DNA of 20,953 nucleotides, taken from positions 1 to 20,953 of IMG/VR virus record IMGVR_UViG_3300025120_000703, one strand, 5' to 3'. The notes beneath the pieces were generated by a model, which did not search any database, had not been told where the DNA came from, and saw nothing but the letters and a program-made list of their open reading frames with translations. Shown piece by piece: positions 223 through 20,720 of this stretch (position 1 is the stretch's first letter; every line of letters begins with the position of its first letter). Position numbers and translations under genes: made by a program. Source of the DNA: a virus.

Positions 223-819
223 ATGGAATTTAACAATTTAGTTGAGGGTATCCTACAGTCCTTAAATGAGACTAAAGAAGCGCCTGATGGTTATTACTAT
301 ACTGAGAAAGGTAAACTAAGAAAGGGTAATCCAGCTTCTGATGGAAGAGGTGGTCCAAAGTATGCTTCTGATCCAACTGATAGGAAAAACTACGGTCCTA
401 GAGAGGACAATGAAGAACGTAAAAAGGGTAAGAAAAAGAAGAAAGGCCTTACCGGTTTGGCTTTACTCGCTCAACAAGAGCAAGGTGAGCAGATAGGGAG
501 AGATGGTAGAGGATTAGGTCCGGATTCAAGAAAGGATAAGGAAGAAGATGCTGAATATAGAGGACGTAAAGTTTCACTTAATAAGCCAACTCGTGGAGAT
601 GTTAAGAAGTTTAAAGTATATGTAAAGGATCCTAAATCAGGTAACGTTAAGAAGGTTAACTTCGGACACGGTGGGACATCAGCTAAACGTAAAGGTGAAA
701 AGACCATGAAGATACGTAAGAGTAATCCTAAAGCTCGTAAGTCTTTCAGGGCTAGACACAATTGTGACAATCCAGGACCTAAAACAAAAGCAAGGTATTG
801 GTCATGTAAAAAGTGGTAA
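223..819 (+). CDS. Basic Cys/Trp-motif protein, virion-associated candidate
   Basis: A 198-residue, strongly basic protein. The N-terminal part (residues 22-60) is rich in Gly, Lys, Asp and Pro. Residues 65-74 are nearly all Lys/Arg. An acidic EEDAE stretch at 107-111 precedes a C-terminal module (about 117-198) that starts KPTRGDVKKFKVYVKD and ends with ARHNC (C181) and RYWSCKKW (C195). From memory, this C-terminal module recurs in small basic proteins of marine T4-like phages and some algal viruses, and may belong to a catalogued DUF (possibly DUF5872); I could not verify that. The function is unknown. The charge and late promoter fit a DNA-binding or internal virion protein, which is inference. 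Its TAA stop overlaps the next gene's ATG (TAATG). Arg and Lys are often CGT and AAG here, less so in the large genes downstream. Confidence 0.85.
   Translation: MEFNNLVEGILQSLNETKEAPDGYYYTEKGKLRKGNPASDGRGGPKYASDPTDRKNYGPREDNEERKKGKKKKKGLTGLALLAQQEQGEQIGRDGRGLGPDSRKDKEEDAEYRGRKVSLNKPTRGDVKKFKVYVKDPKSGNVKKVNFGHGGTSAKRKGEKTMKIRKSNPKARKSFRARHNCDNPGPKTKARYWSCKKW
539..555 (+). repeat. Direct repeat copy 1, encodes EEDAE
   Basis: The 17-nt sequence aggaagaagatgctgaa occurs identically at 1507-1523 in the neighbouring gene. It encodes an acidic EEDAE linker just before the C-terminal basic module. Confidence 0.7.
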
Positions 820-2400: not shown

Positions 2401-4230
2401 ATGACTGATAAAAATAACGAACTTCTAGATTTTAATTTACCACAAGATGCTTACGCCGCTTTTGATGCAGTAAGCTTAAAAGATTTTATTGTAAAACGAT
2501 TAAATGAAAATGAAAAGTTTACAGATCAAAATTTTGAAGGTAGTAATCTAGCCGCTATTATAGATATTGTAGCGTATTCATATCACGTACTACTATTTTA
2601 TCTCAATAATACTGCTACAGAAGTCTCTTTTGATCAAGCTACATTATACGAGAACATGAATAAGATAGTCAAGACGATTGGCTATAAGCCGTCTGGTAAA
2701 CAAACTTCTTTAGCTTCTATTAACGCTACAGCTGCAGCTAGCTTAGCGACAGGCAATTACACGATAAAAAAATATTCATACTTTCTTGTAGATAACGTAC
2801 AATATACTACAAACAAAGATTATAGCTTTACTATATCAGAGACAAAAAAGCAAAGTTTACCAGTATTAAACAAAAATGTTATTTTATATCAAGGTACAGT
2901 CGGTGAATATCCAGATTACACAGCTCAAGGAAGTCAATTTGAAACTTTAAATATTGTTGTAGATAATATACTAGACAGTAATGATAGTAGATTTATAGCT
3001 GATAACACTTTAAGCGTATATGTTAAGGAAGCTGAAACGGGATTATATTATGAGTATAATGAAGTTGATAGTCTGTATATTGCAGATAAAAACGAAAGAG
3101 TTTTTGAAAAGAGGCTTAATGAAAATGGTCATTTTGTTATTAAGTTTGGTGATGGTGTTTCAGGTAAAATGTTAGCCCCGGGTAGTATTGTATCGGTAAA
3201 TTATATTTTATCTGACAATCAACGCGGTATTATAAGTAAGAACGCTATTAACGGTGATAAATTATTTGTTTATGATAGTTCACGTCAAAGAGAGATTTTT
3301 AATGATACTTACACTAATAAAAATTCTACTACTTTTGTAACTGCAGCTAATAGTTCGCTGCTAACGTTTAATAATCCTAATAATTCTTCACCTGTTGTAG
3401 ATGAAGAGACTGTTGATCAAATTAGGGAAAACGCTCCTAGAGTATTTAGTTCGCAATTAAGATTAGTTTCTACACAGGACTATGAGGCTTTCATGGACAA
3501 AAGTTTTAATAATATAGTTATTGATTCAAATGTAGTAAATAACCAGTCGTTTATTAATGAATATATTCAATACTTTTACGATATTTGCGTAGACCCGGAT
3601 AAATCAAATAGAGTCTTAATAAATCAAATTAACTTCGCTGATAGTTGTGATTTTAATAATGTTAATATATTTACGGTTCCAAGATTCACAATAACTAATG
3701 ATGGTGATTATCCTGAATTCCTAAGTAATTCTCTTAAAAATCTTATTATTGATTCTGCTAATGAAAGAAAAAGTCTTTCACAAGAAGTAGTTCCGCGAGA
3801 TCCAGTATATATGGCTTTTGATTTAGGGATTTCTAATCAAAGTAATATAGTTCCTAATATTAGCCAAGATACAACGTTAGTAGTAGTAAGAGAGTCTAGA
3901 AATAAGATAAACAGTGAGAGGCTTAAGTCTCAGGTAAGCGCTGCTATATTAAATTTCTTTAACCCGATATCAAATATTCTTGGCCAAGAGTTAGCATTGA
4001 ACACCTTAACATCAACTATCTTAAGTATAGAAGGTATTAAGAGAGTAGAAACTAGAAATAATAGCGAAAATATTTCATTTAAGGGTATTTCTCTTGTATC
4101 ATATAATCCTCTATATCCTACTGCTGATATAGAGTTAGTAAATCAAAATATAACCTTACCTTACTTTAAGTTTCCTTATTTTATCAATCCTAATTCGTTA
4201 TCTAGTAAAATCGTAGTAATAGATGAGTAA
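2401..4230 (+). CDS. 6: Baseplate wedge protein, gp6-like
   Basis: A 609-residue protein, close to T4 gp6 (660). In T4, gp6 forms the inner ring that ties the wedges together. The N-terminal part carries the conserved pattern FEGSNLAAIIDIVAYSYHVL (45-64), then FDQATLYENMNKIVKTIGY (77-95), typical of gp6 and Baseplate-J-like proteins. A beta-rich middle contains IKFGDGVSGKMLAPGS (about 247-262), another recurring motif of this family. The C-terminal region near 505-560 has the helix and turn (AAILNFF, then SIEGIKRVETRN) seen in these proteins. Translation starts 5 bp after the gp25 stop with no Shine-Dalgarno sequence, so coupling is likely. The end overlaps the next gene by 8 bp. Confidence 0.93.
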   Translation: MTDKNNELLDFNLPQDAYAAFDAVSLKDFIVKRLNENEKFTDQNFEGSNLAAIIDIVAYSYHVLLFYLNNTATEVSFDQATLYENMNKIVKTIGYKPSGKQTSLASINATAAASLATGNYTIKKYSYFLVDNVQYTTNKDYSFTISETKKQSLPVLNKNVILYQGTVGEYPDYTAQGSQFETLNIVVDNILDSNDSRFIADNTLSVYVKEAETGLYYEYNEVDSLYIADKNERVFEKRLNENGHFVIKFGDGVSGKMLAPGSIVSVNYILSDNQRGIISKNAINGDKLFVYDSSRQREIFNDTYTNKNSTTFVTAANSSLLTFNNPNNSSPVVDEETVDQIRENAPRVFSSQLRLVSTQDYEAFMDKSFNNIVIDSNVVNNQSFINEYIQYFYDICVDPDKSNRVLINQINFADSCDFNNVNIFTVPRFTITNDGDYPEFLSNSLKNLIIDSANERKSLSQEVVPRDPVYMAFDLGISNQSNIVPNISQDTTLVVVRESRNKINSERLKSQVSAAILNFFNPISNILGQELALNTLTSTILSIEGIKRVETRNNSENISFKGISLVSYNPLYPTADIELVNQNITLPYFKFPYFINPNSLSSKIVVIDE

Positions 4231-6313
4231 AATAAATACAACTTATGCACTATTTGATGTACATGATTATAAAAATGAAAGTGTTCTTTCTTCTTATAAT
4301 TTAGATATTACACCCTTAACTTTTAAGGCAGACTTACCTTCGACAAGCTTTTATTCAGATATAAATAAATTTGAAGCGCTATTTGATTTTGGTGATGGTA
4401 CTATAGGTACAGGATTAACAGCATCACACACTTACTCACTACCCGGGTTGTATAAAGTAAGAATGATAATTAATGATTGTGAGAATAATGCTCTATTAGC
4501 CTCTTATTCAACTGACATAAATATCTACGATTATATAGAAAATACATTTTCAGTAGAAATAGAAGATAATATTTTACCGCTATCAGCAGGTGAGTTTTCA
4601 AAACCAATTACTATTACTAATAAAGCTCCGTTTTATCAAGATAGTAATAATATATTCTACACTGTATCCGGGTTAACTATACCTAACTATTTTGATCTTA
4701 CACCTTATAAGTTTAATCACCTTCAAAAATACTACTCTTTCTACGAAAAGTCTTATATTGAAAATTTATCAGCAAGTGAATACAATGAAATACCCTTTAT
4801 AGGCGTTAGTGGTTCAAATATATATGTAAAGCTATCTGGCAACAAGATAGTGGATGCTAAAAGTACAGATATTGATAGTGTGTTTGTTGGAACGTCAGGT
4901 CGCGAATCATATTATTTTTCATCAGATCAAATTGCAAGTGGTATAACGATTAACCTTTTTAAAGATAGAAATAAGATTTTTAGTAAAAATAGTAATTTAG
5001 ATTATTCCCTTAATAATTTTAATAACAATTTATCAATATCTTTAACTGCTAACGTTGGAACTACCTCACTTTCAGCTAATTTAAGTTCATTAACCATTAA
5101 CGATAATGGATTAACTGAAGAGGGAGACGACGAAGCACAAATTTTCGATATTAGCCCAGTACAGTTCAAAAAGGCTCCCATACCGTTCTTTATTAAGCCT
5201 ACAAGTATATCTAATTATACTGTAAAGGGGTTAACATTAACCGGTAGTATTACAGGTAAATTGTATGATAGTAATAACCAAGAAGTAAATACATCTTACT
5301 ATAGTATATCTAGTCTAAACAGTTCTATTTCCGGTATAGATACAGATTATTGGTTTTATGGAAACTTAACCTATGATGATGGTCTTTCAACTGTCGACTC
5401 TTTTACACTAGTAGTTAGTGCGGAGTTTGCAAACTCGTCAGAGAATTTCATATTGGGCGGTAGAAGTGTTAGCTTTAGTATCTACCCTAAAGATTATTAC
5501 TATTTTGCAAAAGAGAATGAAGATATTGATTTTACAGAAGTATTTAAAAGCTTAAGATTTCAGGAAATCCTTTTAGATAAAAATATACTCTTTGATGATT
5601 TTATAGGTTCTATTTTTGGTAATTTAAGTTCTAGTAATTCATCTCTCGGTAAGACATTAAATGAAAAAATCTTTAATTTTGTAGATAATAACGCTAATAT
5701 TGACAAATGTAATTTAAACAGTCTTATTAATATAGGTAATCAACTAAATGAAAACACTAACGTTTATGACGAATCACTCTTTAACTTTCCACCGGCGATA
5801 GTAAGATTAATGAGCATGTTTTCTACTGATTATAATCAGTTTAAAGGAACTACAAACAAGTTTAAAGAGAACTTTAACGATAGAGGAATAACGACGAGAG
5901 ATAAATATGGAAAGAATTTAGGCTCAGAAATTGATATTTATTCCTATACAGTGACCGCTGGTACAGATATAGTAGCTTTGGAAAAGTTTAGCAATAACTA
6001 TTCTCTTCTAAATACCTACCAGCCAATTTGTGCTGTAGATGCATTGCAATATAAGTTGAGCGAATTCAACACCGACTGGGGATGGCCGTTAGTATTACCT
6101 AATAATTTTATATCGACTGATTTATCTAAGTTTTATACCTTTTACGAATATACTTCTGGGTTTGAAGGGACTGTATATGATGGAATCTTAAACTATGCAG
6201 ATAGTTTAAACTCCTTTGACATAACTACAGCGTTAAGTAGTTTTAGGGGTGATAATAATATAGAGGATATAGCGATCCGTAACTCATTGTTCAGTAGCTT
6301 ATCTATAATCTAA
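4223..6313 (+). CDS. PKD-domain virion protein, probable baseplate or tail part
   Basis: A 696-residue protein. Residues about 45-104 form a PKD-type Ig-like domain: FDFGDGT (54-60), HTY (69-71) and GLYKVRMIIND (75-85). A long Ser/Asn/Thr-rich beta region follows. The C-terminal part (about 415-696) is more helical, starting SFSIYPKDYYYF, with RFQEILLDKNILFDD around 445-460 and TDWGWPLVLPNNF near 616-628. I recall similar C-terminal segments in uncharacterised structural proteins of marine T4-like phages, but cannot name the T4 counterpart. Position right after gp6 suggests a wedge or baseplate-peripheral component. It shares an 8-bp overlap with gp6 and lacks a Shine-Dalgarno sequence. No signal peptide is seen. 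Confidence 0.85.
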   Translation: MSKINTTYALFDVHDYKNESVLSSYNLDITPLTFKADLPSTSFYSDINKFEALFDFGDGTIGTGLTASHTYSLPGLYKVRMIINDCENNALLASYSTDINIYDYIENTFSVEIEDNILPLSAGEFSKPITITNKAPFYQDSNNIFYTVSGLTIPNYFDLTPYKFNHLQKYYSFYEKSYIENLSASEYNEIPFIGVSGSNIYVKLSGNKIVDAKSTDIDSVFVGTSGRESYYFSSDQIASGITINLFKDRNKIFSKNSNLDYSLNNFNNNLSISLTANVGTTSLSANLSSLTINDNGLTEEGDDEAQIFDISPVQFKKAPIPFFIKPTSISNYTVKGLTLTGSITGKLYDSNNQEVNTSYYSISSLNSSISGIDTDYWFYGNLTYDDGLSTVDSFTLVVSAEFANSSENFILGGRSVSFSIYPKDYYYFAKENEDIDFTEVFKSLRFQEILLDKNILFDDFIGSIFGNLSSSNSSLGKTLNEKIFNFVDNNANIDKCNLNSLINIGNQLNENTNVYDESLFNFPPAIVRLMSMFSTDYNQFKGTTNKFKENFNDRGITTRDKYGKNLGSEIDIYSYTVTAGTDIVALEKFSNNYSLLNTYQPICAVDALQYKLSEFNTDWGWPLVLPNNFISTDLSKFYTFYEYTSGFEGTVYDGILNYADSLNSFDITTALSSFRGDNNIEDIAIRNSLFSSLSII

Positions 6314-15849: not shown

Positions 15850-17277
15850 ATGCCAGATATTACAATAGTAAAAATAAAAGTGAGACGTGGATCTGATGAT
15901 CAACGTAAGCAACTAGTATTAGATCAAGGAGAGTTAGGTTATACTATAGACACAAAAAGAGTGTTCGTAGGCGATGGTTCTTTATCTGGTGGTAGGGTAG
16001 TAGGTAATAAAAACTTTGGTGTTTTTAATTTAGAATCTGGTCTAGGTAATGTAGCAGGTGCTCAAATAGGAGATATCGGTTATGCTAATTCAAAACTATA
16101 CACTCTTACTGCAAGCGAATATGACTCTTCACTTACAGGTTGGGCCTACGTAGGTCCTGCGTTAGATAATGAAAATATTGAATTTACGGCCTCTAATACA
16201 CTAACTGTTAAGCAAAGCTCTTTAGATGCTAATGATATGACTAGTTCTGCTTTTGGTAGTGGACTGGTAAGAGACGGTAGTTCAATTTCAATTGATTTTA
16301 ATTCTGATTTCTTAGAGCTCTCTTCTTCAAAATTATCACTAAAAGAAAATTCTATTACGGAGCGGGAGATTACAACCACATCTATCTTGAGTGGATTAGT
16401 TGGAGGTGGAGGAGCTCCAATTAGTATTAATGTTGGAGAAGGTCTAGAGATCGATATTGATAATAGATTACAAACTTCCCCCGCAAAAAATAATTCAGTA
16501 TCTTTTAGCTCATTTGATAATCAAGCGTTTGGAGAAGGCCTAGTATATAACAATTCTACTAATCAAATTCAAAGTATTTTATCTGGTGTAAATTCTGAAA
16601 ATTTTGACCTTACTAACAGACGTTTATCTCTTATACAAACAGGAGTATCAGGAGTTTATGAAATGCCTCAGCTCTCATTAGATAACTACGGTATATCAAA
16701 TATACCACAATCCACTTTCTTTGATTGTTTAACAGCGACATCGTTAACAGGCGCTGATTTTGTACCAGTCGGGGCTATATTACCACATGCCGCCGCTATA
16801 GGTAACGTACCTGATGGTTATCTACTTTGTAACGGGCATTATCTATCACGTAGTGGGTACAGCGAACTTTATAGTGTTATAGGTACAGAGTACGGTAGTA
16901 CAGATAATACTGACTTTAGATTACCTAATCTAACAGGCGGTAATGTGTTACAATATGGCTCAGGTGACCTTCCACCTACTTCCCAAACGTGGTATTTAAC
17001 AGGTAGTACAACTGAGGGTTCCGGATCTACTTTAAATGCTGTTGCTACAAACTTTATAATTAAGGCTACTTCTATTGAAACTGGCTTATTCACAGGTGCA
17101 CCTAACCAAGGGTCGGAAGGATTAACACATAGTGGTACAACATATTCTACAACTGATTCAGACGGTAATTCCTTTATTCTCAGTTCAGCAGGTTTTTTAA
17201 CACTAGCTTTATCTGGTAGTACGCGAAATAATGGCGCTACTTTTGATAGATACGCAATACCAATTTTTAACTACTAA
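15850..17277 (+). CDS. Tail-collar fibre protein with Mtd-N-like head (copy 1)
   Basis: A 475-residue protein. The head (about 6-54) has KVRRGSDDQRK, GELGYTIDTKRVFVGDG and GGRVVGNK. This matches the pattern of the N-terminal domain of the phage major tropism determinant and related fibres, which joins the fibre to the virion. A low-complexity Ser/Asn-rich shaft follows (about 110-300). A phage tail-collar domain spans about 305-370: PVGAILPHAA, PDGYLLCNGHYLSRSGYSEL, and YGSTDNTDFRLPNLTGG. After NFIIKA (402-407) comes a variable Gly/Ser/Thr-rich tip (about 408-475). Collar domains occur in T4 gp12-type short fibres. It shares head and collar with the product of the next gene. No Shine-Dalgarno sequence or octamer lies in the 12-bp gap before it, so it is read from the 15140 promoter. 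Confidence 0.88.
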   Translation: MPDITIVKIKVRRGSDDQRKQLVLDQGELGYTIDTKRVFVGDGSLSGGRVVGNKNFGVFNLESGLGNVAGAQIGDIGYANSKLYTLTASEYDSSLTGWAYVGPALDNENIEFTASNTLTVKQSSLDANDMTSSAFGSGLVRDGSSISIDFNSDFLELSSSKLSLKENSITEREITTTSILSGLVGGGGAPISINVGEGLEIDIDNRLQTSPAKNNSVSFSSFDNQAFGEGLVYNNSTNQIQSILSGVNSENFDLTNRRLSLIQTGVSGVYEMPQLSLDNYGISNIPQSTFFDCLTATSLTGADFVPVGAILPHAAAIGNVPDGYLLCNGHYLSRSGYSELYSVIGTEYGSTDNTDFRLPNLTGGNVLQYGSGDLPPTSQTWYLTGSTTEGSGSTLNAVATNFIIKATSIETGLFTGAPNQGSEGLTHSGTTYSTTDSDGNSFILSSAGFLTLALSGSTRNNGATFDRYAIPIFNY

Positions 17278-17285
17278 CATATACC

Positions 17286-18791
17286 ATGGCTTCAATTGAA
17301 ATATTAGAAAACACACTCTTAAAACTATTAGTACGTAGAGGTACCAACGAAGATAGAAAGAATATTACCTTAGATGAAGGTGAATTAGGATATGCTTCTG
17401 ATACTACGCGACTGTTTATAGGAGACGGTACTACGGTTGGAGGTAACTTAATAGGTAATAAATTCTTAGGTAGTAGGTCTGATGTTACTCTCGAAACTGG
17501 TGAGATAAATGATCTAGCTTTCGATAATGATAATAATACATTACAACGCATTAAGCAAAATAATGGTTCAGCTGCTTTAGATTGGGAAACAGTATCAAAT
17601 TTATTGAGTTCAGGTAATGCGTCTATTGTAATTGATGCTGCTCAACGCGCAACTGTAGGTACTCTTTCTGCTGGTAATTTTTCTGCTGATGCTCTAGGTA
17701 ATAGTATTGAGCTTGACACAAGTAATAGAATAGCCTTAAGCAGTAGTATTAGTATTAATGAGATTAAACAACGTACAATTGATGCTACTAGCTACTTAAC
17801 TTTACCTTCCAAGCTTAAAATTAGTTCTATTAATTACGATTTTCCTTCAACAGCCGCATCTACAAATAATAGTTTTCTTATATCTAATACTAATAATGAA
17901 TTATCGTGGGGGTTACCTCCAGTTATAACAAGTACTGTACCTACAACTACTGCAAATCAAATACCTGCAGGTACAATAGTACCTTTTGTAACAGGAGCTG
18001 ATTTTATACCTTACGGTTGGTTAAAATGTGATGGATCAGAGGTATTAGGTACAGATTACCCTGATTTATCTGGGGTTATAAGTACACGATATGGGGGAAC
18101 GGTATCAAGTTTCAATCTACCCGACTTTACTAATAGTGCATTGTATGGTACAAATGTGGATGATCCGTTTTTATCTACAAAATATAGCATAGCTTCAGGT
18201 CATAGCACTGATACGAACGAGCTTTCTGCGTTTGGTACTACGTTTATCATAAAAGCCTTCCAGGATAGCGTACAAGCTCCTACTATTAACTTTAGTACAC
18301 CATTATCTGCAACCTTAAATGGGGTTAATATTACCGATACTACAACAGAATTCTTAAGCGGTACGATAGAAGTTGGATTATCCGGGTTTAAAGAAGATAA
18401 TTGCATATATAAAACTGTTTATCTTGATGAACCTGTGATACTTGCTGACAACATCAGCTTAGATAGTGGTATGACGTCATGGCAAACATTTAGTCTAGGT
18501 AATATTGGACCTTCAAATATAAAAGCAATCTTTGGTGTAATAAGACCTGGACAGATGTCGAGCGCGAATGGATATGAACAAATTATATACAGTACATATG
18601 ATAACACAACTGCTCCAGAGGGTAGTACAAAGAAATTTATGTTAGCGAGGCATAAAGGTCCTAATAAGAGAAATGATATGCACACAGCAGGATTTTCTGC
18701 TAGGGTTGATAGGGCTAATAATAATATTTACCTGGCTAGAGCCGGTAGGAACCGTGCCATATACATTGAAATACATGGATATAGTGTTTAA
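17286..18791 (+). CDS. Tail-collar fibre protein with Mtd-N-like head (copy 2)
   Basis: A 501-residue paralogue of the preceding protein. The head (about 11-59) has KLLVRRGTNEDRK, GELGYASDTTRLFIGDG and GGNLIGNK. The shaft (about 105-215) is low-complexity. The tail-collar domain lies at about 226-290: PAGTIVPFVT, PYGWLKCDGSEVLGTDYPDL and YGGTVSSFNLPDF. After TFIIKA (319-324) the C-terminal region (about 325-501) is unlike copy 1: it is about 175 residues long and has VYLDEPVILADNISLDSG, GVIRPGQM and a basic stretch ARHKGPNKRND (454-464). This is probably a separate folded tip that contacts the host surface or closes the trimer. It starts 8 bp after the previous stop, with no Shine-Dalgarno sequence. 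Tandem duplication followed by tip replacement would explain the pair. Confidence 0.88.
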   Translation: MASIEILENTLLKLLVRRGTNEDRKNITLDEGELGYASDTTRLFIGDGTTVGGNLIGNKFLGSRSDVTLETGEINDLAFDNDNNTLQRIKQNNGSAALDWETVSNLLSSGNASIVIDAAQRATVGTLSAGNFSADALGNSIELDTSNRIALSSSISINEIKQRTIDATSYLTLPSKLKISSINYDFPSTAASTNNSFLISNTNNELSWGLPPVITSTVPTTTANQIPAGTIVPFVTGADFIPYGWLKCDGSEVLGTDYPDLSGVISTRYGGTVSSFNLPDFTNSALYGTNVDDPFLSTKYSIASGHSTDTNELSAFGTTFIIKAFQDSVQAPTINFSTPLSATLNGVNITDTTTEFLSGTIEVGLSGFKEDNCIYKTVYLDEPVILADNISLDSGMTSWQTFSLGNIGPSNIKAIFGVIRPGQMSSANGYEQIIYSTYDNTTAPEGSTKKFMLARHKGPNKRNDMHTAGFSARVDRANNNIYLARAGRNRAIYIEIHGYSV

Positions 18792-18795
18792 CTGC

Positions 18796-18803
18796 TGTAA
18801 ATA
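18796..18803 (+). promoter_or_regulatory. T4-type late promoter octamer
   Basis: TGTAAATA, then 5 nt (TCTAT) and an ATG at 18809. It supports the 52-codon ORF as a real gene. Confidence 0.55.
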
Positions 18804-18808
18804 TCTAT

Positions 18809-18967
18809 ATGGAAGAGTTAATAGTTGAGGGTCTTGATTACGAAGACTTTGTTAATTTAAAAGAATATCTACTTAAATTATCGTTTAATGTAGATGAATT
18901 AGAAGAATTAGTAAAAGTAAAAGACATTATAGGTAAGCTCGACCAGATAATTGACGCGTTTAATTAG
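18809..18967 (+). CDS. Small acidic helical protein (52 residues)
   Basis: A 52-residue ORF filling the space between the second collar fibre gene and the next late gene. The sequence starts MEELIVEGLDYEDFVNLKEY and has 14 Asp/Glu against 5 Lys and no Arg. The leucine/isoleucine spacing (for example VDELEELVKVKDIIGKLDQI) suggests one or two amphipathic helices, perhaps a coiled coil. Its reality is supported by an in-frame late octamer 5 nt upstream, by exact fit between neighbours (17 bp after one stop, 22 bp before the next start) and by lack of any other gene there. No family is recognised. A chaperone, assembly or adaptor role for neighbouring fibres is possible, but nothing in the sequence demonstrates it. 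Confidence 0.7.
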   Translation: MEELIVEGLDYEDFVNLKEYLLKLSFNVDELEELVKVKDIIGKLDQIIDAFN

Positions 18968-18975
18968 TTCTACAG

Positions 18976-18983
18976 TATAAATA
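18976..18983 (+). promoter_or_regulatory. T4 late promoter octamer, perfect consensus
   Basis: TATAAATA exactly as in T4, followed by 6 nt (TGTATA) and the ATG at 18990. Confidence 0.75.
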
Positions 18984-18989
18984 TGTATA

Positions 18990-19853
18990 ATGGCCTTACC
19001 ATCCGACATTCTTCTTCCATCTGATGCAAGATACTATCAGTTTGTAGAGACAGATTTAAGTTATAACTCAAATTATGACATAGTATGGTCGTTACAGTTT
19101 AAATTACCTGGTGATAGTGTATACAATAGTAACTACGAGTACGCGTTTGGTACTTTTTTAACTTCATTAACAGGAGAACTTTCATCCTTACCCGGTCAAT
19201 ATGTTGGAGATACTGACCCTCTATTAGTATCAGGTCAAACACAACTATTAACAGATCAATCACCTACTTCTGCAATTACAACAGAAGGTGAAATAGATTT
19301 AATGGTTGATTCCACTACTTTAAGTGGTCAGCTTATTAAAGTAGTGTTCGATAGTACAGGTTTATATGGACTTTCAGGTAGAAACGGTAGAGGCGGTGTT
19401 GGAGAGCATCAGATAAAAAGAAATAGCTTATGTATACGTGATTATTTTCACAATCTAGTGTTTTACGAGCATTTATCAGCTTTCTCACCTACCTTTTCGC
19501 TAACTTCTGATGAATTTGAAACATTAAGAGTTAGATATGCTAATTTGGGTACTAAGATCTCTATAGATAAGAAGATAAATACTAAATACCAAACTCTAAC
19601 CACTGTACAGTTACCATTCAGACTAAAGGAATTTGATAATCTTGATAATGTTTTTGTTGGATATTCATTTAGTACACCTATTTCTACACAAAACACAGCA
19701 TTATCAGTAGGAGACTTCTTTATTAAAAATGCTCATATAGAAGGATTAGAGACTACAGAAGTATTAACACAAACGATTACTTCAGCACCGTTAAGCTTCA
19801 ATCCAAATACATCTTTCTCTACAGTTTCCTTTGTTAGCGCTATACCAGTGTAG
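18990..19853 (+). CDS. Virion protein, possible L-type-lectin-like jelly roll
   Basis: A 287-residue, all-beta-looking protein. Several strands follow the order seen in L-type/ConA-like lectins: YDIVWSLQFKLP (29-40), YAFGTFLTSL (51-60), LIKVVFDSTG (115-124, in the place of the lectin VEFDT strand), LRVRYANLGTKISIDKKI (179-196), and FVGYSFSTPIS (222-232, like the lectin VGFSATTG strand), then FFIKNAHIEG (243-252). I see no clear Ca or Mn ligand set, so sugar binding is uncertain. It has its own perfect late promoter and lies between fibre genes and a glycosyltransferase. A surface adhesin or virion decoration protein is a reasonable guess; plain structural protein is the alternative. Confidence 0.8.
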   Translation: MALPSDILLPSDARYYQFVETDLSYNSNYDIVWSLQFKLPGDSVYNSNYEYAFGTFLTSLTGELSSLPGQYVGDTDPLLVSGQTQLLTDQSPTSAITTEGEIDLMVDSTTLSGQLIKVVFDSTGLYGLSGRNGRGGVGEHQIKRNSLCIRDYFHNLVFYEHLSAFSPTFSLTSDEFETLRVRYANLGTKISIDKKINTKYQTLTTVQLPFRLKEFDNLDNVFVGYSFSTPISTQNTALSVGDFFIKNAHIEGLETTEVLTQTITSAPLSFNPNTSFSTVSFVSAIPV

Positions 19854-19883: not shown

Positions 19884-20720
19884 GTGAGTAAGCTGACTAT
19901 CGGTTTAGCCGTGTATGATGATTATGATGGAGCTTTTTTTACGCTTCAGTCGCTAAGAATGTACCACTCTGAGGTAATGGATAGAGTTGAATTTGTTGTT
20001 ATAAATAACAACCCTACAAGTGACCATGGAAAAGCTCTTAAAACTATGGTTGATACTATAACTGAACCAAAAACCTATCTAGAGTATACAAAATATAGTA
20101 GTCCTTTTATTAAAGGTAAGATTTTTGATATAGCAGAAACGGAATATGTATTAGTTATCGATAGTCATGTTTTGCTGGAACCAGGCTCCCTAAAAAAGTT
20201 ACTCGATTACTACGATAAAGGTCTTGATAACGGTAATTTATTACAGGGACCTCTATTGTATGATGATTTACACAATGTATCTACTCATTTTGACTTTTCA
20301 TCTAAAGAATGGAGTGGTTATATGTGGGGAGCGTGGGCTACTGATAAGAGAGGTACTAAATCTTCTAACAAGCCATTCACCATACCTGGTAATGGTATGG
20401 GTCTATTTAGCTGCAGAAAAGATGCTTGGTTAGGCTTTAATAAAAGTATGAGAGGCTTTGGTGGAGAAGAAGGTTATATACATGAAAAGTATAAACTTCA
20501 AAATAGAGAAACAATATGCTTACCATTTTTGAGATGGAATCACCGATTTGCCAAACCTAGTGGTACTCCTTACAAACTTGATGTAAATCAAAGGTTTAGA
20601 AACTATATGATCGCTTTCCAAGAGGTCGGTAAGGATACAAAAGAGGTCATCGACAACTTTCAACGTGTAGTTTCAACAGAATATATAAAGGAAGTTAAAA
20701 GGGAATTAAATATTACCTAA
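19884..20720 (+). CDS. GT-A glycosyltransferase, family 2-like, DxH type
   Basis: A 278-residue protein beginning at GTG, consistent with the late octamer 5 nt upstream. The fold is GT-A: LTIGLAVYDDYDGAFFTLQS (4-23) is the first nucleotide-binding strand and helix, and VEFVVINNNP (35-44) is the second strand. The metal site is DSH (93-95, in YVLVIDSHVLLEP), a DxH in place of DxD. PGNGMGLFSCRKDAWLGF (168-185), GFGGEEGYIHEKY (191-203) and WNHRF (218-222) supply acceptor-side and base residues. DxH and GGEE together resemble polypeptide GalNAc-transferases. No signal peptide or membrane segment is present, so it should act in the host cytoplasm. Location after fibre genes with a late promoter suggests a virion protein as target, but host glycans are also possible. 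The end overlaps the convergent gene by 15 bp. Confidence 0.88.
   Translation: MSKLTIGLAVYDDYDGAFFTLQSLRMYHSEVMDRVEFVVINNNPTSDHGKALKTMVDTITEPKTYLEYTKYSSPFIKGKIFDIAETEYVLVIDSHVLLEPGSLKKLLDYYDKGLDNGNLLQGPLLYDDLHNVSTHFDFSSKEWSGYMWGAWATDKRGTKSSNKPFTIPGNGMGLFSCRKDAWLGFNKSMRGFGGEEGYIHEKYKLQNRETICLPFLRWNHRFAKPSGTPYKLDVNQRFRNYMIAFQEVGKDTKEVIDNFQRVVSTEYIKEVKRELNIT

Follow-up and report, generated by a model that had tools for sequence, protein, structure and literature searches.

Placement of a late-promoter octamer directly at the gene start is a rule of the phage lineage analysed here and is not special to the 52-residue gene under study. The window, by which we mean the whole stretch of DNA analysed, is the IMG/VR record IMGVR_UViG_3300025120_000703, positions 1-20,953 (20,953 nt). 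On balance, we slightly favour the explanation that this lineage has moved its late promoters onto start codons, giving a gp55-type programme of leaderless mRNAs with Shine-Dalgarno-like sequences almost lost, in which the 52-residue gene would be one leaderless cistron and perhaps encode a head cargo protein with a short tag. So framed, the gene would belong to the late virion genes of a marine T4-type phage, and its product would be a candidate new virion component. The features of the locus are as follows.

18809-18967, + strand: gene of the conserved 52-aa small protein; the A of its ATG is the predicted transcription start (leaderless)
18796-18803, + strand: T4-type late promoter octamer TGTAAATA, predicted to occupy -13 to -6 from its sequence, the spacing rule and T4 numbering
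18976-18983, + strand: octamer TATAAATA of the downstream gene, 6 nt ahead of that gene's ATG
17286-18791, + strand: fibre gene encoding Mtd_N and tail Collar domains, with relatives upstream in 39/39 loci
18990-19853, + strand: gene of a 287-aa protein from a family without assignment; relatives downstream in 39/39 loci

The 52-residue ORF is a real gene under purifying selection. It sits within a 198-nt gap (18792-18989) and its product carries 14 acidic and 5 basic residues, both as described in the first-pass annotation. The family comprises 39 loci, made up of 34 relatives from an IMG/VR scan (11 in an earlier scan), 4 found through a pattern scan, and the window, and these encode 32 distinct proteins of 52-55 aa. 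For nine close sequences, which are related so that the pairs are not independent, pooled pS was 0.33 and pN 0.049, corresponding to a dN/dS of ~0.12. The annotation had named conservation and synteny as checks on the gene, and both gave positive results: the frame is kept in 39 loci under this selection, and a relative of the fibre gene stands upstream in every one. Its description of the gene as lying between two adhesin genes holds for the upstream neighbour, with its Mtd_N and Collar domains; the downstream neighbour had no Pfam or PHROG family match. In L031, a 72-aa gene of no known family (16575-16793) lies between the small gene and a 299-aa gene; relatives of this 72-aa gene occur in 27/39 loci and are absent from the window clade and L079-L081. 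Further downstream in the window, a GTG-start gene (19884-20720) weakly matches glycosyltransferase family 2 (E 5e-4, short of the Pfam cut-off), and octamer TGTAAATA ends 5 nt before its start.

The small protein was compared with known families and structures. It had no match to Pfam at 0.1 and nothing significant in PHROG (best E 0.013 for the window protein and 0.004 among 12 members); the weak PHROG matches were all to function-unknown families and were taken as chance. With two members as queries, 50,697 phage records gave only matches with E of at least 1, and none of 161 pattern stretches in GTDB genome contigs was confirmed. A fold search against BFVD and PDB returned nothing at E ≤ 0.001, and the best E in a PDB sequence search was 0.096. 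The family profile found nothing at E ≤ 0.1 in pieces of T4, P-SSM2, Mosig, HTVC008M, RM378, KVP40, Cr30 and phiM12; pelagiphage and phiM12 small proteins annotated as gp51 were compared by eye and set aside.

The surrounding genes link the window to T4-type phages. It contains gp25, gp6-like and gp10-C-like baseplate genes, and a gene for a PKD-domain protein (4223-6313) adjoins them. Among the matches listed, the window gp6 and the major capsid protein of the relative G001 came closest to cyanophages and other T4-type phages, with 23-34% identity. G001 (197 kb) carries a gp21-type protease, gp23 and gp55; it is the one record of five relatives with the protease, the other four being fragments without a match. 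gp55 homologues were present in 3/6 records searched, all of them relatives of the window.

We counted octamers with respect to gene starts. With up to one mismatch allowed, the window contains 129 octamers versus 125.7 expected by chance; the number of octamer-like sites is thus at chance level, and the site therefore matters solely through its position. For genes of at least 60 aa, an octamer stood 4-8 nt before the start in 6/16 window genes (0.11 expected; the 52-aa gene is outside the 16), and in 56/238 genes of G001, 15/40 of G002, 10/26 of G003, 20/38 of G004, 10/34 of G005, 39/152 of G006 and 53/183 of G007. In these counts for the window and G001-G007 the start was chosen among early ATGs, and 0.1-1.1 genes were expected. 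With the first ATG only, in 727 genes of eight related (not independent) records, TAAATA ended 5, 6, 7 and 4 nt before the ATG in 118, 56, 17 and 0 genes, respectively, as compared with ~1.5 expected per position and 5.8 over the four. Across G001-G005 and the window, 6/106 octamer genes overlapped or abutted the upstream gene versus 129/257 (p ~1e-17). A pyrimidine occupied position -1 in ~98% of 62 genes with 5-nt spacing versus ~50% of 257 others, which fits the expectation for a transcript starting on A. Shine-Dalgarno-like sequences are scarce in the lineage, being found, for example, in 6/113 (G006) and 9/130 (G007) non-octamer genes, and A at -3 was mildly in excess in non-octamer genes (0.53).

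In the textbook system of T4 late transcription, genes carry leaders and Shine-Dalgarno sites. For T4 late promoters, PMC2988020 gives -13 as the position of the first octamer base, and no -35 box. An octamer that spans -13 to -6 and is separated from the ATG by 5 nt would put +1 on the A of the ATG, and a leaderless mRNA is predicted. The octamer of the small gene is placed such that T4 numbering would put its transcription start on this A, and late mRNAs of the lineage, with octamers 5-7 nt before the ATG, should likewise be leaderless. We class the octamer as a putative T4-type late promoter on its T4-type sequence and the gp55 homologues in relatives, with the 5' end predicted from T4 numbering. 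A promoter fused to the start codon would couple the selection of the transcription start to the point where translation begins, and would fit hosts in which Shine-Dalgarno sequences are rarely used.

We also examined pieces of other phages for octamers near starts. These were found in 0/18 genes of T4, 1/112 of P-SSM2, 1/65 of RM378 and 0/66 of phiM12; the counts for KVP40 (0/79) and Cr30 (0/85) came from pieces with mostly non-virion-annotated genes and are little informative. Two cultured pelagiphages showed a partial form of the arrangement; the counts were 5/58 for Mosig and 8/50 for HTVC008M, and a direct search of Mosig gave 8 octamer-ATG fusions, 5 of them at annotated starts. Among the best matches in the open-licence literature, at the level of titles and abstracts, none described leaderless late genes for T4-type phages. 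Late-promoter prediction is described as unsuccessful in pelagimyophages in PMC7029224. A remark by the AR9 authors, that phage transcripts are often leaderless (PMC5312081), indicates that leaderless phage mRNA as such was already known. The octamer-ATG spacing offers a simple route to late promoters and corrected gene starts in uncultured marine phages.

At the small gene, 5 nt separate the T4-type octamer NNTAAATA (18796-18803) from the ATG (18809), which is the distance that the first-pass annotation had given, and the proposal made there of a late-type promoter stands for the window clade. The gene's own exact octamer was found in 9/39 loci, all of the window clade; L012 has a one-mismatch octamer 5 nt from the ATG, and in L079-L081 an exact octamer lies just 1 nt from it. 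Directly after the small gene, an octamer followed by an ATG 4-8 nt later was present in 36/39 loci, and in the sister clade this octamer of the following gene overlaps the stop codon of the small gene. The 23 sister loci have a constant 32-nt gap between fibre gene and small gene, with a conserved TAACTA and no exact octamer of the small gene's own. TAACTA was considered as a promoter in the sister clade and rejected, as it was not enriched before other genes (2 versus 3.6 expected). Within the 32 nt before the small gene in L073-L078 and L082-L098, an AT-rich hairpin stands immediately ahead of the ATG in some loci (for example L074, -10.5 kcal/mol) and not in others. The arrangement suggests that, for most family members, the small gene is probably the last one on the fibre transcript. 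Because its own octamer occurs in just 9/39 loci, a dedicated dose is no family trait; the idea that a dedicated promoter signals a required amount of the protein was not upheld, the promoter-on-start arrangement being lineage-wide.

For the function of the small protein, our best guess, and a tentative one, is an internal protein targeted to the capsid. Two further features bear on this.

18809-18832, + strand: codons 1-8, MEELIVEG, the most conserved part, predicted to be flexible; contains I-V-E|G and is a candidate both for a capsid-targeting sequence and for a cleavage site of gp21 type
18839-18961, + strand: predicted two-helix hairpin, residues 11-22 and 28-51 (AlphaFold2, mean pLDDT 91.7)

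The first-pass annotation had pointed to heptad-like hydrophobics, and the protein is helical by prediction. Residues 1-10 had no regular structure in the model, with a pLDDT of 74 versus 80-97 in later blocks. In the alignment of 32 proteins M1, E3, V6, E7, G8, D13, K43 and I47 are invariant, and I5 is kept in 31 of the 32 distinct proteins, with V in the other; pN was 0.084 for residues 1-16 versus 0.235 for residues 17-54 (22 sequences). A tail that is flexible yet the most conserved part suggests a recognition peptide. I5-V6-E7|G8 fits the rule L/I-X-E for the gp21 prohead protease near the N-terminus, which PMC9026906 gives for T4 internal proteins; the same source states that the first ten residues of T4 IPIII suffice for sending a protein into the head. 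T4 gp22, gp23, gp24 and gp67 contain sequences of the L/I-X-E type, and I-E-E-G is present in G001 gp23.

Three lysine/arginine-rich proteins are encoded at window positions 223-819, 819-1649 and 1646-1891 and are candidate DNA-binding head cargo. Two of them have N-termini of the capsid-targeting type, MEFNNLVE|G and MKTFKEFFTE|G. By eye, the G007 relative of the first has LLEE|AY at the matching place.

The proposed path is as follows. A gp55-type late polymerase would make a leaderless mRNA of the small gene, which a ribosome would take from its 5' AUG. The flexible N-terminus MEELIVE would carry the protein into the prohead core, like the short capsid-targeting sequence of T4, and a gp21-type protease would cut after I-V-E; targeting and cleavage together form the weakest step. 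A 45-residue acidic helical hairpin would be left inside the head and possibly be ejected with the DNA.

We next asked how far the motif is shared. A scan for MEELIVEG gave 18 stretches, 10 of them on contigs that the family already included; of the other eight, 4 were family members, 3 belonged to one unrelated 218-aa protein and 1 to an unrelated 74-aa protein, so no other related payload was found with the exact sequence. Looser L/I-X-E N-termini occur, without a significant excess per homologous cluster. In G001-G005 and the window, L/I-X-E-A/G/S lay within the first 13 residues in 26/409 genes versus 210/8220 later bins; versus bins from the seventh on, the figures were 26/409 and 153/6249, bins two and three also being somewhat raised; the excess was significant in this first count. 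Six of the 26 genes belong to the small-protein family, and without it the counts were 20/403 versus 209/8202 (p 0.006). They fell to 10/246 versus 119/3999 (p 0.34, not significant) when each homologous cluster was represented by a single protein, and conserved N-terminal motifs in 109 orthologue trios numbered 4/109 versus 26/1291 (p 0.29). Our confidence in capsid targeting was lowered to its present tentative level because the N-terminal enrichment vanished without the family and duplicates. The head-cargo reading rests on the family's own invariant flexible tail, the gp21-type protease and gp23 site of G001, and the two window N-termini. Counted against the tag were the shortness of the motif, the invariance of E3 and V6, which the protease rule does not need, and the continuation of conservation to residues 9-14. 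The 7-residue propeptide is shorter than the 10-20 residues quoted for T4 (PMC5694885), the gene is in the fibre cluster in all loci, and the protease was seen in a single record.

A rather doubtful alternative casts the small protein as an adaptor of the fibre or baseplate, or as a general fibre-assembly factor, with its fixed flexible N-terminus docking onto a conserved partner and the hairpin holding the shaft or base of the Mtd_N/Collar fibre. The gene keeps the same place after the fibre gene throughout the family, and in the 23-locus sister clade, with its constant gap and no exact own octamer, it probably shares one transcript with the fibre; however, the order of neighbouring late genes is likewise kept across loci, which makes linkage weak evidence. 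The first-pass annotation had suggested a fibre chaperone or adaptor. A tip-specific chaperone is disfavoured, because the small protein does not change together with the fibre tip (last 130 residues): in 23/75 pairs of loci whose small proteins share at least 85% identity, the tips share less than 50%. By eye, the fibre C-termini fall into several unlike types while the small protein stays related, and different tips stand beside the same small gene. The identities of small protein and tip correlate overall (0.84), as expected from shared ancestry. These observations count against the tip-specific form only, leaving the general adaptor at the doubtful standing given above; no match to T4 gp57A was found. 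Fibre tips in L073-L078 and L082-L098 are glycine-rich and end in EW(S/N/T), unlike that of the window clade.

We consider it unlikely that the product is a non-virion late protein that affects the host or late regulation, with IVEG matching the protease rule by chance. The motif does occur in ~2.5% of 13-residue bins and its N-terminal enrichment is not significant without duplicates, but conservation in the protein is highest in the flexible tail, and the gene stands in a virion gene cluster. We consider it quite improbable that the octamer beside the ATG serves in translation, as a Kozak-like signal of the kind described for Bacteroidota and reported for Flavobacterium johnsoniae in PMC6847099, rather than as a promoter: the few Shine-Dalgarno-like sequences and the mild A excess at -3 in non-octamer genes would suit it, but the octamer has the same sequence as the T4 late octamer, is all but missing from genes that overlap or abut an upstream one (which also have little room), goes with a pyrimidine at -1 in spacing-5 genes, and gp55 homologues occur in relatives.

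Returning to the capsid-targeted internal protein, the small protein resembles T4 IPI-III and Alt, which are gp21-processed, in its short conserved N-terminus, the L/I-X-E rule and a variable payload (as set out in PMC9026906), and differs from them in its 7-residue propeptide, fibre-cluster gene and acidic payload, its targeting and cleavage being predicted from sequence. T4 gp67, a prohead core protein, also begins with a similar sequence (MEGLIEA), is acidic and is listed as a gp21 substrate in PMC9026906, but was rejected as a relative (hhalign probability 1.2%, no match); by eye, G001 has a separate 48-aa gp67-like candidate adjoining gp21. T4 gp57A is likewise small and serves fibres in T4, while the small gene adjoins a fibre gene, but it too was rejected (hhalign probability 0.6%, no match). 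The late promoters of T4 (gp55/gp33/gp45) share with the window lineage the octamer and, in relatives, gp55 homologues. In an 18-kb stretch of T4, in contrast, the distance from octamer to start is 14-28 nt (5 genes) rather than 5-7 nt, and 11/18 genes have a Shine-Dalgarno-like sequence, which is uncommon in the window lineage. HTVC008M differs in having a Shine-Dalgarno-like sequence in 20/42 other genes, and searches of phage records with two family members did not recover the small protein. The late genes of HTVC008M are nevertheless like those of the window lineage: its first 50 kb (L128, 1-50000) contain 10 octamer-ATG fusions, 10/10 at annotated gene starts, which makes HTVC008M a cultured phage with candidate leaderless late mRNAs.
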